Below, piece by piece: positions 10,401 to 12,939 of a DNA stretch of 64,000 nucleotides. Origin of the DNA: Ptiloglossa arizonensis (lineage: Eukaryota; Arthropoda; Insecta; Hymenoptera; Colletidae); the NCBI RefSeq assembly GCF_051014685.1, contig NW_027479531.1:1-64000 (forward strand), in the 5' to 3' direction. A model generated the notes under the pieces. That model saw nothing but the letters and a program-made list of their open reading frames with translations. It did no database searches and was not told the origin of the DNA. A program made the translations under genes and the position numbers. How positions within the stretch are numbered: position 1 is the first letter of the stretch; each line of letters begins with the position of its first letter.

Positions 10401-11920
10401 GTTATAGGTTATACGTTATACGTTATACGTTATACGTTATACGTTATACGTTATACGTTATAGGTTATACGTTATACGTTATACGTATAGATTATACGTT
10501 ATACGTTATACGTTATACGTTATACGTTATACGGTATACGTTATACGTTATACGTTATACGTCATAGGTTATACGTTATACGTTATACGTTATACAATGT
10601 ACGTTAAACGTTATACGTTATACGTTATACGTTATACGATATACGTTATACGTTATACGTTATACGTTATACGTTATACGTTATACGTTATACGTCATAG
10701 GTTATACGTTATACGTTATACGTTATACGATATACGTTATACGTTATACGTTATACGTTATACGTTATACGTTATACGTTATACGTTATACGTTATACGT
10801 TATACGTTGTACTTTATACGTTATACGTTATACGTTATACGTTATACGTTATACGTTATGCGGTATACGTTATACGTTATACGTGTTACGTCATCCGTTA
10901 TACGTTATACGTTATACGTTAAACGTAATGCGTTATCCGTTATACGTTATACGTTATCCGTTATACGTTGTACGTTATACGTTACACGTTATACGTTATA
11001 CGTTATACGTTATACGTTATACGTTATACGGTATACGTAATATGTAATACGTTAGACGTTATACGTTATACGTTATACGTTATACGTTGTACGTTATATG
11101 TTATACGTTATACGTTATACGTTATACGTTATACGTTGTACTTTATACGTTATACGTTATACGTTATAGGTTATACGTTATACGTTATACGTATAGATTA
11201 TACGTTATACGTTATACGTTATACGTTATACGTTATACGGTATACGTTATACGTTATACGTTATACGTCATAGGTTATACGTTATACGTTATACGTTATA
11301 CAATGTACGTTAAACGTTATACGTTATACGTTAAACGTTATACGTTATACGTTATACGTTATACGTTATACGTTATACGTTATACGTTATACGTCATAGG
11401 TTATACGTTATACGTTATACGTTATACGTTGTACGTTACACGTAATACGTCATACGTTATACGTTATACGTTATACGTTATACGTTATACGTTATACGTT
11501 ATACGTTATACGTTATACGTTATACGTTATACGTTATACTTTATAGGTTATACGTTATACGTTATACGTTATACGTTATACGTTATACGTTATACGTTAT
11601 ACGTTATACGTTATACGTTATACGTTATACGTTATAGGTTATACGTTATACGTTATACGTTATACGTTATACGTTATACGTTATACGTTATACGTTATAC
11701 GTTATACGTTATACGTTATGCGTTATACGTTATAAGTTATACGTTATACGTTATACGTCATAGGTTATACGTTATACATTATACGTTATACGTTATACGT
11801 TATACGTTATACGTTATACGTTATACGTTATACGTTATACGTTATACGTTATACGTCATACGTTATACGTTATACGTTATACGTTATACGTTATACGTTA
11901 TACGTTATACGTTATACGTT
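7421..11920 (+). repeat. CGTTATA satellite left of the retrozyme
   Basis: The heptamer array runs uninterrupted to the left edge of the retrozyme. It holds early isolated copies of cassette B (GTGTTACGTCATCCG near 8057 and 10882). About 7440-9050 matches the variant order of about 14130-15730. Variants at 9527-10110 recur at 13533-14116 (offset 4006). From about 11087 the order equals that at 18117 onwards (offset 7030; checked at the irregular CGTATAGATTATA monomer, 11190 against 18220, and at the CGTCATA monomer near 11854 against 18884). No gene is seen. Confidence 0.95.
11917..11920. repeat. Left target-site duplication of the retrozyme (CGTT)
   Basis: CGTT directly precedes the element, and CGTT directly follows it at 12936-12939. 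The flanking satellite makes a 4-bp match likely in one phase in seven by chance alone. Support comes from the empty paralogue at about 18950: the satellite on the two sides of the element is displaced by 1019 bp, which equals 1015 bp of element plus 4 bp of duplication. A 5-bp duplication (ACGTT) with a 1014-bp element gives the same total. Confidence 0.75.
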
Positions 11921-11984
11921 TTTGGCGGCGCTAAATTAAAGTATGTGAGGAAGGAGAGAACGGAGATATAAGGAAGTGGGGATA

Positions 11985-12053
11985 AGCGTTTCATCCCGGG
12001 CCTGCTAGTGGACTCGTCAGTAAGGCATCCTAGCAGGCCCTGCCTTATACGCC
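11985..12053 (-). ncRNA. Type III hammerhead self-cleaving ribozyme (3' LTR copy)
   Basis: Read on the minus strand. Stem III is 12053-12049 with 11989-11985 (GGCGU with ACGCU: four canonical pairs and one G-U). The cleavage triplet is GUA, with cleavage expected between 12048 and 12047. Stem I is UAAGGC (12047-12042) with GCCUUA (12026-12021), six perfect pairs. The invariant CUGACGA lies at 12020-12014. Stem II is GUCC (12013-12010) with GGAU (11996-11993), and the invariant GAAA lies at 11992-11989. Stem III is the open end, which makes this type III. All core residues are present. Oddities are a G-U closing pair at 10.1-11.1, where G-C is usual, GUA in place of the commoner GUC, and loops I and II that are complementary over 11 nt. 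This copy would make the 3' end of the monomer RNA. Confidence 0.9.
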
Positions 12054-12081
12054 GGGACATTGGAAGATCGGTAAGAGGTCG

Positions 12082-12089
12082 TATATATA
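12082..12089 (-). promoter_or_regulatory. TATA box in the 3' LTR
   Basis: TATATATA, in an otherwise GC-rich context, starts 41 nt upstream of the hammerhead cleavage site on the minus strand. With an RNA polymerase II start about 30 nt downstream, transcription would begin near 12059, just before stem III. This copy could drive transcription leftwards into the satellite. Confidence 0.6.
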
Positions 12090-12176
12090 GCGATCGGAGC
12101 AGGTACGGGAACTTGCGGGAAACGGTTGGTGGTGAGTTTCCCTCTGGTGGCAAGCGTGGGTAGTGCCGCCACATAA

Positions 12177-12183
12177 CCCCCTT
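12177..12183 (-). promoter_or_regulatory. Polypurine tract (PPT) of the retrozyme
   Basis: AAGGGGG on the minus strand is separated by TTA from the TGTGGCGGC start of the 3' LTR. A purine run just inside the 3' LTR primes plus-strand DNA synthesis in LTR elements. The three-base gap and the short length make it a modest example, but it is the only purine run at this edge. Confidence 0.7.
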
Positions 12184-12670
12184 GCCAGTGGTAAACGATA
12201 CTTTGAAGTTCCGTCCTGATGTCCCAGTGGCGTAGGTATTTGTTCCGTAGTTCGGTTTGTCACAACAGGCACAGGAGGAGGTTGTCCAGAGCGGTGGAAG
12301 AGAAGAATGCTTCTTTTTCGAAGTAAGGCCCAGCTGCTGTCGATTGCGGAATACGCGTGGCGAGCATCGTTTGCTCAAGCCGCGTTTTCGCTTGTTGTCC
12401 GACGTTGATGCGTGCGCGTACCAGTATTTATGAAACGCATCGGTGTGGTCGGTGAATAATGTCGACAAAGCTGCCTGCTGTCCTCCTGGGGTTGATCCTG
12501 ATGGTTAGCCGGGAGTATAGCGTCCGTGTCGTCGCTGGCAGGTTGAGGAGTCAACCCTCGGAGAGGGGGATTAACGAAAATCGGCCTTTACGTTGCGTTC
12601 CTTCCATCGTCTTGTGCTGCACCTGTACTGCTGCTGCGCTGTTGTCCAGAAGGTTGCGTTGGTTCTTAGA

Positions 12671-12681
12671 CGGGGTCACCA
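12671..12681 (-). promoter_or_regulatory. Primer binding site (PBS), complementary to a tRNA 3' end
   Basis: TGGTGACCCCG begins one base inside the 5' LTR. The opening TGG pairs with a tRNA CCA tail. The 11 bases pair with a tRNA ending CGGGGUCACCA, which is how animal tRNA-Trp ends as I remember it; pairing does not continue beyond base 11. It is not the initiator-Met type (TGGTATCAGAGC) usual in plant retrozymes. The host tRNA is not known from this window. Confidence 0.78.
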
Positions 12682-12746
12682 CTTTGGCGGCGCTAAATTA
12701 AAGTATGTGAGGAAGGAGAGAACGGAGATATAAGGAAGTGGGGATA

Positions 12747-12815
12747 AGCGTTTCATCCCGGGCCTGCTAGTGGACTCGTCAGTAAGGCATCCTAGCAGGC
12801 CCTGCCTTATACGCC
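12747..12815 (-). ncRNA. Type III hammerhead self-cleaving ribozyme (5' LTR copy)
   Basis: The sequence equals the 3' LTR copy shifted by 762. Stem III is 12815-12811 with 12751-12747. Cleavage is after the GUA triplet, between 12810 and 12809. Stem I is 12809-12804 with 12788-12783, CUGACGA is at 12782-12776, stem II is 12775-12772 with 12758-12755, and GAAA is at 12754-12751. It lies only about ten bases after the expected transcription start, so the ribozyme would trim a very short leader and make the 5' end of the monomer RNA. Confidence 0.9.
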
Positions 12816-12843
12816 GGGACATTGGAAGATCGGTAAGAGGTCG

Positions 12844-12851
12844 TATATATA
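12844..12851 (-). promoter_or_regulatory. TATA box in the 5' LTR (main retrozyme promoter)
   Basis: TATATATA lies 41 nt upstream of the 5' hammerhead cleavage site. The predicted start is near 12821, just before stem III of the ribozyme. A minus-strand transcript from here would cover the whole element, including the second ribozyme in the left LTR. Confidence 0.65.
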
Positions 12852-12935
12852 GCGATCGGAGCAGGTACGGGAACTTGCGGGAAACGGTTGGTGGTGAGTT
12901 TCCCTCTGGTGGCAAGCGTGGGTAGTGCCGCCACA

Positions 12936-12939
12936 CGTT
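12936..12939. repeat. Right target-site duplication of the retrozyme (CGTT)
   Basis: CGTT matches the four bases left of the element (11917-11920). After it the satellite resumes in a phase shifted by 4 relative to the left side once the 1015-bp element (exactly 145 times 7) is removed. That is the shift a 4-bp duplication predicts. Confidence 0.75.

Follow-up and report, generated by a model that had tools for sequence, protein, structure and literature searches.

The window analysed here, a stretch of 64,000 nucleotides from the genome of the bee Ptiloglossa arizonensis, harbors at positions 11921-12935 a 1015-bp LTR element (sense strand minus) which is probably an LTR retrozyme of an insect, replicating by hammerhead self-cleavage through a circular unit, moved by a Gypsy helper and copied in a way that mixes LTRs. 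The anatomy of the element, the fold and conservation of its hammerhead, its mobility, a chimera with a Gypsy element and the mixed LTRs can be read directly from genomic sequence. In the relevant passages of the retrozyme literature, LTR retrozymes are placed in (flowering) plants (PMC4918200, PMC7761336, PMC7229834, PMC11722881), whereas animal retrozymes are described as carrying a type I hammerhead and lacking LTR, PBS and PPT (PMC7761336, PMC7229834, PMC11722881). An abundant and recently active insect LTR retrozyme would break the division drawn in those passages between plant LTR and animal non-LTR elements, and it suggests that hammerheads can be acquired by LTR elements more than once. 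Additionally, the insect host offers an animal for assaying retrozyme circles, the chimera constitutes physical evidence for the identity of the retrotransposon that moves a retrozyme (for plants, passages of PMC4918200 derive the helper from small shared boxes), and mixed LTRs in single insertions allow genome data to be used for testing which RNA template is copied.

Anatomy of the element and its hammerheads

According to TRF, the 7-bp satellite (CGTTATA)n covers the whole 64-kb window (1-64000), and the element at 11921-12935 is its sole interruption. Both LTRs are exactly 253 bp long and enclose an interior of 509 bp. An earlier sequence-only reading had described identical 253-bp LTRs buried in a 7-bp satellite, equipped with PBS and PPT and devoid of coding domains, all of which was borne out (253/509/253, zero differences between the LTRs). 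The 5' LTR (12683-12935, minus strand) begins with TGTGGCGGC and ends with GCCGCCAAA, and the 3' LTR is located at 11921-12173 (minus strand). The interior (12174-12682, minus strand) is non-coding and without Pfam match. Just inside the 5' LTR it carries the primer-binding site TGGTGACCCCG (12671-12681, minus strand), which is of tRNA-Trp type and which we take to be the complement of the eukaryotic tRNA-Trp 3' end; the polypurine tract AAGGGGGTTA (12174-12183, minus strand) abuts the 3' LTR and has a counterpart in Gypsy. A TATA-like box TATATATA, the putative promoter of the element, lies 34 nt ahead of the predicted cleavage site in the 5' LTR (12844-12851, minus strand) and is found with the same sequence in the 3' LTR (12082-12089, minus strand). 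The duplicated target site CGTT is visible on the left (11917-11920) as a 4-nt shift of the satellite phase and on the right (12936-12939), where the phase restarts by 4 bases; CGTT on both sides with a phase offset of 4 nt is what a 4-bp duplication is expected to look like. The CGTTATA satellite was also seen at the left end of contig C3 (L050) and, among 40 copies with flanks inspected, around 10.

The GC content of the element is 53.7%. Its longest minus-strand frame, 199 aa from stop to stop (11905-12504), gave no match in a Pfam search at E≤1, and in 20 of 54 interiors the length relative to 509 bp breaks this frame. ARAGORN detected no tRNA gene in the window; likewise, at the level of whole tRNA genes (ARAGORN) and of Rfam families at gathering score, no tRNA- or 5S-derived LTR sequence was seen there. 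A reading of the element as one with a tRNA promoter, as in Helenus, was set aside.

Each LTR contains on the minus strand a type III hammerhead motif of the form GCGU-A-UAAGGCA-loop-UGCCUUA-CUGACGA-GUCC-loop-GGAU-GAA-ACGC, comprising a stem III of 4-5 bp, a stem I of 7 bp, a stem II of 4 bp, CUGACGA, GAAA and GUA. Alignment to RF00008 and a descriptor (three stems, core, NUH) agree on its location at 12748-12814 in the 5' LTR and at 11986-12052 in the 3' LTR, both on the minus strand, which upholds the earlier claim of a full type III hammerhead in each LTR. The predicted cleavage sites, 12810/12809 and 12048/12047, delimit a hammerhead-to-hammerhead unit of 762 nt. In the window, the descriptor recognizes just these two sites. 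On random sequence generated by a first-order Markov model with the composition of the element it matched once in 478 Mb (one strand), and not at all when stem I was at least 7 and stem II at least 4 bp.

One test proposed in the sequence-only reading went against it as worded, since a hammerhead hit above the Rfam threshold had been asked for and, at gathering score, Rfam returned no match on the element. RF00008 aligns end to end with the hammerhead, but its score of 22.8 bits (E 0.041) stays below the cut-off of 48.5; the two 13-nt loops may depress this score. Nevertheless, the sub-threshold score is judged to be outweighed by the other hammerhead evidence because of the rarity of the descriptor, the conservation within the LTR and a count of 694 genome matches against none, as detailed below. 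The genome-wide scan with RF00008 was discarded as uninformative: no match at E≤10 was obtained among the 68 of 95232 candidates scored, and at the same loose threshold 7 of 14 control genomes also gave matches, none of them above the cut-off.

The hammerhead is the most conserved segment of the LTR. Its motif was present within few differences in every one of the 94 LTR rows from the window and 39 loci, with an intact core in 92 of them; the loci outside the window contribute 92 LTRs, among which 10 variants occur. For the 66 distinct sequences among these 92 LTRs, the mismatch rate amounts to 0.0022 in the hammerhead, 0.0081 in the LTR upstream of it and 0.129 downstream (hammerhead vs upstream, Fisher p 1.6e-5 with related cells counted as independent). 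Across the genome, the stem-II half of the motif gave 694 matches compared with 0 for a reversed control pattern. Among the matches listed, 54 lie on contig C1, namely 19 pairs 759-773 bases apart, read as complete elements, and 16 singles, read as solo LTRs or damaged copies. Viral contigs, when scanned for the stem-II motif, yielded no match, and the pattern CTGANGAGNNC...GNNCGAAAC yielded 33 matches vs 4 in the control, several of them chance-like. Separately, three matches to a loose hammerhead pattern with a spacing of 202 bp were seen at G000:C1:23896760-23897192, where a tandem repeat may match the pattern by chance.

Within their 13 nt, loops I and II are perfectly complementary to each other over 11 nt, a length reached by none of 20000 shuffles. 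In the 5' LTR, complement and alignment place the loop I half at 12792-12802 and the loop II half at 12760-12770 (both minus strand). This complement could serve as a tertiary contact of the hammerhead, and an 11-bp loop-loop helix is longer than the five- and six-pair pseudoknots described in the passages of PMC3088659, which report assays on such pseudoknots and predict pseudoknots in about 40% of hammerheads. The minimum-energy fold of the single strand is a competing 11-bp hairpin and not the hammerhead (-23.0 kcal/mol, as compared with -12.2 when the hammerhead stems are formed without loop-loop helix), and single-strand structure prediction was for this reason rejected as direct hammerhead support. 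The predicted 762-nt circle likewise shows the hairpin form, and its circular fold (z -5.0 vs 40 dinucleotide shuffles) is compatible with a circular RNA.

Divergent relatives were collected with patterns avoiding the main motif. In these, the loop helix forms with 10/10 pairs in L082, 10/11 in L083 and 9/10 in L079, values matched by 0, 11 and 116 of 2000 shuffles, respectively, while loop pairing is weak in the relics L081, L084 and L085; by eye, the complement is 11/11 in L089 and 7/7 in L093. Pairs were counted in 13 chosen sequences, consisting of seven main-family variants together with L079, L082, L083, L089, L090 and L091. Ten of the 11 loop-helix pairs were 96.9% paired and the 11th 84.6%, figures that are favored by leaving out the main-family variants L020, L044 and the second of L039 as well as the divergent L080, L081, L084, L085, L086, L092 and L093 (decay, truncation, doubtful alignment); L087 and L088 are main-family copies. 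The loop helix includes three two-sided changes (G-C to A-U, C-G to U-A and U-A to C-G), stem III shows one (C-G to U-A in 1/13) and stem II exchanges G-U for G-C in 4/13. When partners were slid by 1-3 columns, 30-37% of cells paired, compared with 92.6% for the structure, and among 500 shuffles 18 reached the covariation score and 33 the percentage paired. Hence, covariation lends the loop-loop helix modest support, not proof. At G000:C11:9941900-9942010 (L093), a divergent motif resembling a hammerhead has a separate loop complement, UUGCUGG/CCAGCAA, and may represent a second retrozyme lineage.

Copies in the genome and mixed LTRs

The search for other copies in the host genome that had been suggested earlier delivered 54 matches when 40 of its 890 candidates were scored. 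In 38 of 40 rows (window plus 39 loci), repeats of 4 or 5 bp flank the copy, the exceptions being L031, which lies in satellite and has 3 bp, and L043, the chimera described below; for the ten rows that sit in the 7-bp satellite, the duplication was judged by phase. Copies are spread over many contigs, including the 36-Mb contig C1, with matching target duplications. Some share flanks (L036/L038/L039 and L044/L046) and were probably duplicated together with the satellite. In 9 of 31 two-LTR loci, window included, the LTRs do not differ at all. Identical LTRs, hundreds of hammerhead matches and 4-bp duplications at unrelated sites all speak for the recent mobility that had been ascribed to the element.

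In classical LTR retrotransposition, both LTRs of one insertion come out alike. Greedy clustering of the segment downstream of the hammerhead, however, assigned different U5 types to the two ends in 12 of the 31 two-LTR loci and the same type in 19, and all nine multimers were mixed (uniform multimers, 0/9). The mates in the 12 mixed loci differ after the hammerhead at at least 13 positions in seven cases and at 4-7 positions in five; summed over the 31 loci, 167 differences fall after the hammerhead, 11 upstream and 8 within it. This U5 segment (LTR sense 189-246, L009-L047) is hypervariable and mosaic-looking, the rest of the LTR being nearly constant, and the same greedy clustering resolves 22 U5 types in 94 LTRs. 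In the multimer L040, units 1 and 3 are identical, while the interior of unit 2 is 33 substitutions apart. Certain U5 types recur at unrelated loci, e.g. L017, L032, L034 and L043, which argues for exchange rather than mutation alone. Mixed LTRs would fit circular or concatemeric RNA templates with jumps between circles, and a circular-template model has been proposed for plant retrozymes in passages of PMC4918200; alternatively, gene conversion or later mutation could have generated them.

A Gypsy element fused to the retrozyme

On contig C86 (575757-581531), a retrozyme LTR-interior-LTR is joined at its PBS to gag-pol and the 3' LTR of a Gypsy element. The joint is followed by TGGTGAACCCGACGTGATC, a gag frame, a pol frame of 1054 aa, a PPT and an unrelated LTR of 560 bp. 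A single CTTC duplication encloses the whole chimera, and its removal restores the 177-bp satellite at 114 of 118 positions without gaps. A joint at a shared PBS inside one duplication is expected of plus-strand transfer between co-packaged templates. The fusion was observed as L043 1890-2601 and L052 1-4000, in the 177-bp satellite.

Across the genome, the Gypsy LTR is matched 43 times, and several of these matches form pairs 4744 bp apart. One copy followed at both ends (L058, L057) possesses a 560-bp LTR on each side, PBS, PPT and CAAC flanks, and CTGANGA was absent from the four Gypsy LTRs inspected. The Gypsy PBS TGGTGAACCCGACGTGATC, presumably a tRNA-Trp match, is of the same type as the retrozyme PBS, with TGGTGA in common and CCCG with one difference before the two diverge. 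Likewise, the Gypsy PPT end CACTGGTAAGGGGGTGA/TGTAGCGGC parallels CACTGGCAAGGGGGTTA/TGTGGCGGC of the retrozyme, CACTGGYAAGGGGGTKA/TGTRGCGGC being common to both. In comparison with the Gypsy pieces of C86, the retrozyme interior shares the PPT end only, plus short chance-level matches. The gag frame includes CWYHDTYGNRAHRCQQPC (CHCC motif), DUF7041 and a sub-threshold match to a Ty3 capsid, and the pol frame comprises RT, RNase H and integrase (Pfam) with DTGS and YLDD motifs. Among the best 120 of 6304 RT matches, the highest identities to named sequences are those of bees (Xylocopa 76%, Megalopta 75%, Lasioglossum 73%) and unnamed sequences reach up to 76%; the top bit scores in this set belong to longer, less similar proteins, among them some from a tapeworm, a pseudoscorpion and a nematode.

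According to passages of PMC2582038, a CHCC motif and a tRNA-Trp PBS are the marks of CsRn1 elements, and the element described there has a 4-bp duplication. The CX2HX9CX3C gag motif, the tRNA-Trp-type PBS and the 4-bp duplication of the present Gypsy resemble this Ty3/gypsy clade as described there, and by gag motif, PBS type and duplication length it appears CsRn1-like. The retrozyme, in contrast, codes nothing recognizable, and its LTR is unrelated except at the ends. Based on one chimera, the shared PBS type and the shared PPT end, this CsRn1-like Gypsy or close kin is the likely helper moving the retrozyme.

Proposed replication, rival explanations and known relatives

From these data, we infer a route from transcription start and cleavage to the 762-nt circle, the tRNA primer and the copying mechanism. 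The TATA-bearing LTR would drive a transcript with one hammerhead per LTR, and each hammerhead would cut itself after GUA, releasing a 762-nt unit which would then be circularized. Within CsRn1-like Ty3/gypsy particles, tRNA-Trp would prime reverse transcription on this unit, and the Gypsy integrase would insert the retrozyme cDNA, making the 4-bp duplication. LTRs copied from successive passes or from different templates would result in two unlike LTRs or in mixed tandem units. By means of the 11-bp loop-loop helix, the RNA may switch between a cleaving state and a closed hairpin formed in the circle. A broader proposal, held tentatively and somewhat short of an even chance, is that insect LTR retrozymes arose independently, from a hammerhead LTR and a CsRn1-like Gypsy, and replicate via circular templates with frequent jumps; heteromeric insertions and the retrozyme-helper fusion would then, with equal caution, be genomic records of this mechanism.

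Several rival explanations have to be weighed against this retrozyme route. An ordinary hymenopteran TRIM moved by classical linear-RNA retrotransposition, its hammerhead intact yet without a role in replication, is improbable. TRIMs that combine 4-bp duplications with a Gypsy-type PBS are already known from Hymenoptera (passages of PMC3532108 and PMC10886601), and the same LTR type stands at both ends in 19 of 31 two-LTR insertions; however, a hammerhead without a part in replication is hard to reconcile with the fact that no other LTR segment is as conserved, cutting by the hammerheads of both LTRs would strip the terminal R repeats needed for classical strand transfer (as set out in PMC4918200), and mixed LTRs within intact duplications are not expected of the classical route. 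Less probable still is that the conserved feature is the 11-bp loop I/loop II hairpin, kept as a structural or packaging signal next to an incidental hammerhead core. While this hairpin is the minimum-energy fold, such a signal leaves unexplained why the core is complete, with GAAA, NUH and all three stems, the changes C-G to U-A in stem III (1/13) and G-U to G-C in stem II (4/13) keep the hammerhead paired, and long loop-loop pairing suits hammerheads, given the pseudoknot predictions in PMC3088659.

As to the helper, the C86 fusion might stem from post-insertion recombination of a retrozyme with a Gypsy copy and would then be silent on the matter. Insertions of both families do occur in one and the same satellite of 177 bp, and certain copies have flanks in common, as though the satellite had been amplified along with them. 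Still, this origin seems unlikely, since one CTTC duplication surrounds the fusion and the empty site is restored gap-free, the joint sits at the partly shared PBS, the site of plus-strand transfer, and the common PPT end provides independent evidence for the helper. Plant or other contamination of the assembly, which the description of LTR retrozymes from plants might bring to mind, can practically be dismissed: copies with matching target duplications occur in many contigs including the 36-Mb C1, one copy is fused to a Gypsy with bee sequences as its nearest named relatives by identity (best 120 of 6304 matches), and C1 ends in the aculeate telomere repeat. The right end of this contig reads (TTAGGTCTGGG)n, a repeat reported from many aculeate Hymenoptera in PMC10632776; together with the bee-like Gypsy, it points to an aculeate host, most likely a bee. 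In the same set of contig ends (L049, L051), the right end of C3 resembles a degenerate relative of this repeat.

The architecture of LTR-interior-LTR with hammerheads, PBS, PPT and 4-bp duplication, recognized from the outset as that of a retrozyme, is the ground on which the element is filed as an LTR retrozyme of a new sort. In the open-access papers covered, as represented by titles, abstract starts and passages, no insect LTR retrozyme was recognized. LTR retrozymes of plants, as described by Cervera et al. (2016; PMC4918200) and in the review PMC7761336, are alike in their type III hammerhead LTRs and non-coding interior, and passages of PMC4918200 add PBS, PPT, 4-bp duplication and the occurrence of monomers and multimers, as well as PBS/PPT and terminal boxes in common with a Ty3-gypsy element of otherwise different LTRs. 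The 509-bp interior falls in the reported LTR-retrozyme range of 300-700 bp, and the LTR of 253 bp is shorter than the 300-400 bp reported in plants. Differences lie in the insect host, the CsRn1-like helper, the 11-bp loop-loop complement, the helper chimera and the mixed LTRs within insertions; of the terms chimer-, recombin-, template switch and pseudoknot, none occurs in the main text of PMC4918200. The unusual PBS pointed out in the sequence-only reading is a further difference, TGGTGACCCCG being of tRNA-Trp type as compared with tRNA-Met in plant retrozymes, a trait taken as belonging to plant retrozymes and not as defining for LTR retrozymes.

Metazoan non-LTR retrozymes (Cervera and de la Peña 2020, PMC7229834) share the animal host, the hammerhead and the expected small circular RNA, but as described in passages of that paper they have a type I hammerhead, units of about 170-400 nt, a GC content below 50% and longer duplications and are devoid of LTR, PBS and PPT. 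The present element, in contrast, combines a type III hammerhead with a 762-nt unit, 53.7% GC, LTR, PBS, PPT and a 4-bp duplication. PbTRIM (PMC3532108) and Helenus (PMC10886601) are, in the passages concerned, likewise small non-coding hymenopteran LTR elements with 4-bp duplications and a tRNA-type PBS. Compared at the level of text, the main text on PbTRIM of ants lacks the words hammerhead and ribozyme, and that on Helenus mentions them once only, in a cited title. The Helenus LTR is described there as having tRNA-derived sequence, whereas ARAGORN found no tRNA gene in the window; tRNA-Trp is among the primers of Helenus of Hymenoptera. Being small and non-coding with PBS and PPT, the element also falls under the definition of a TRIM, its 1015 bp slightly exceeding the 1000 bp given in PMC10886601.
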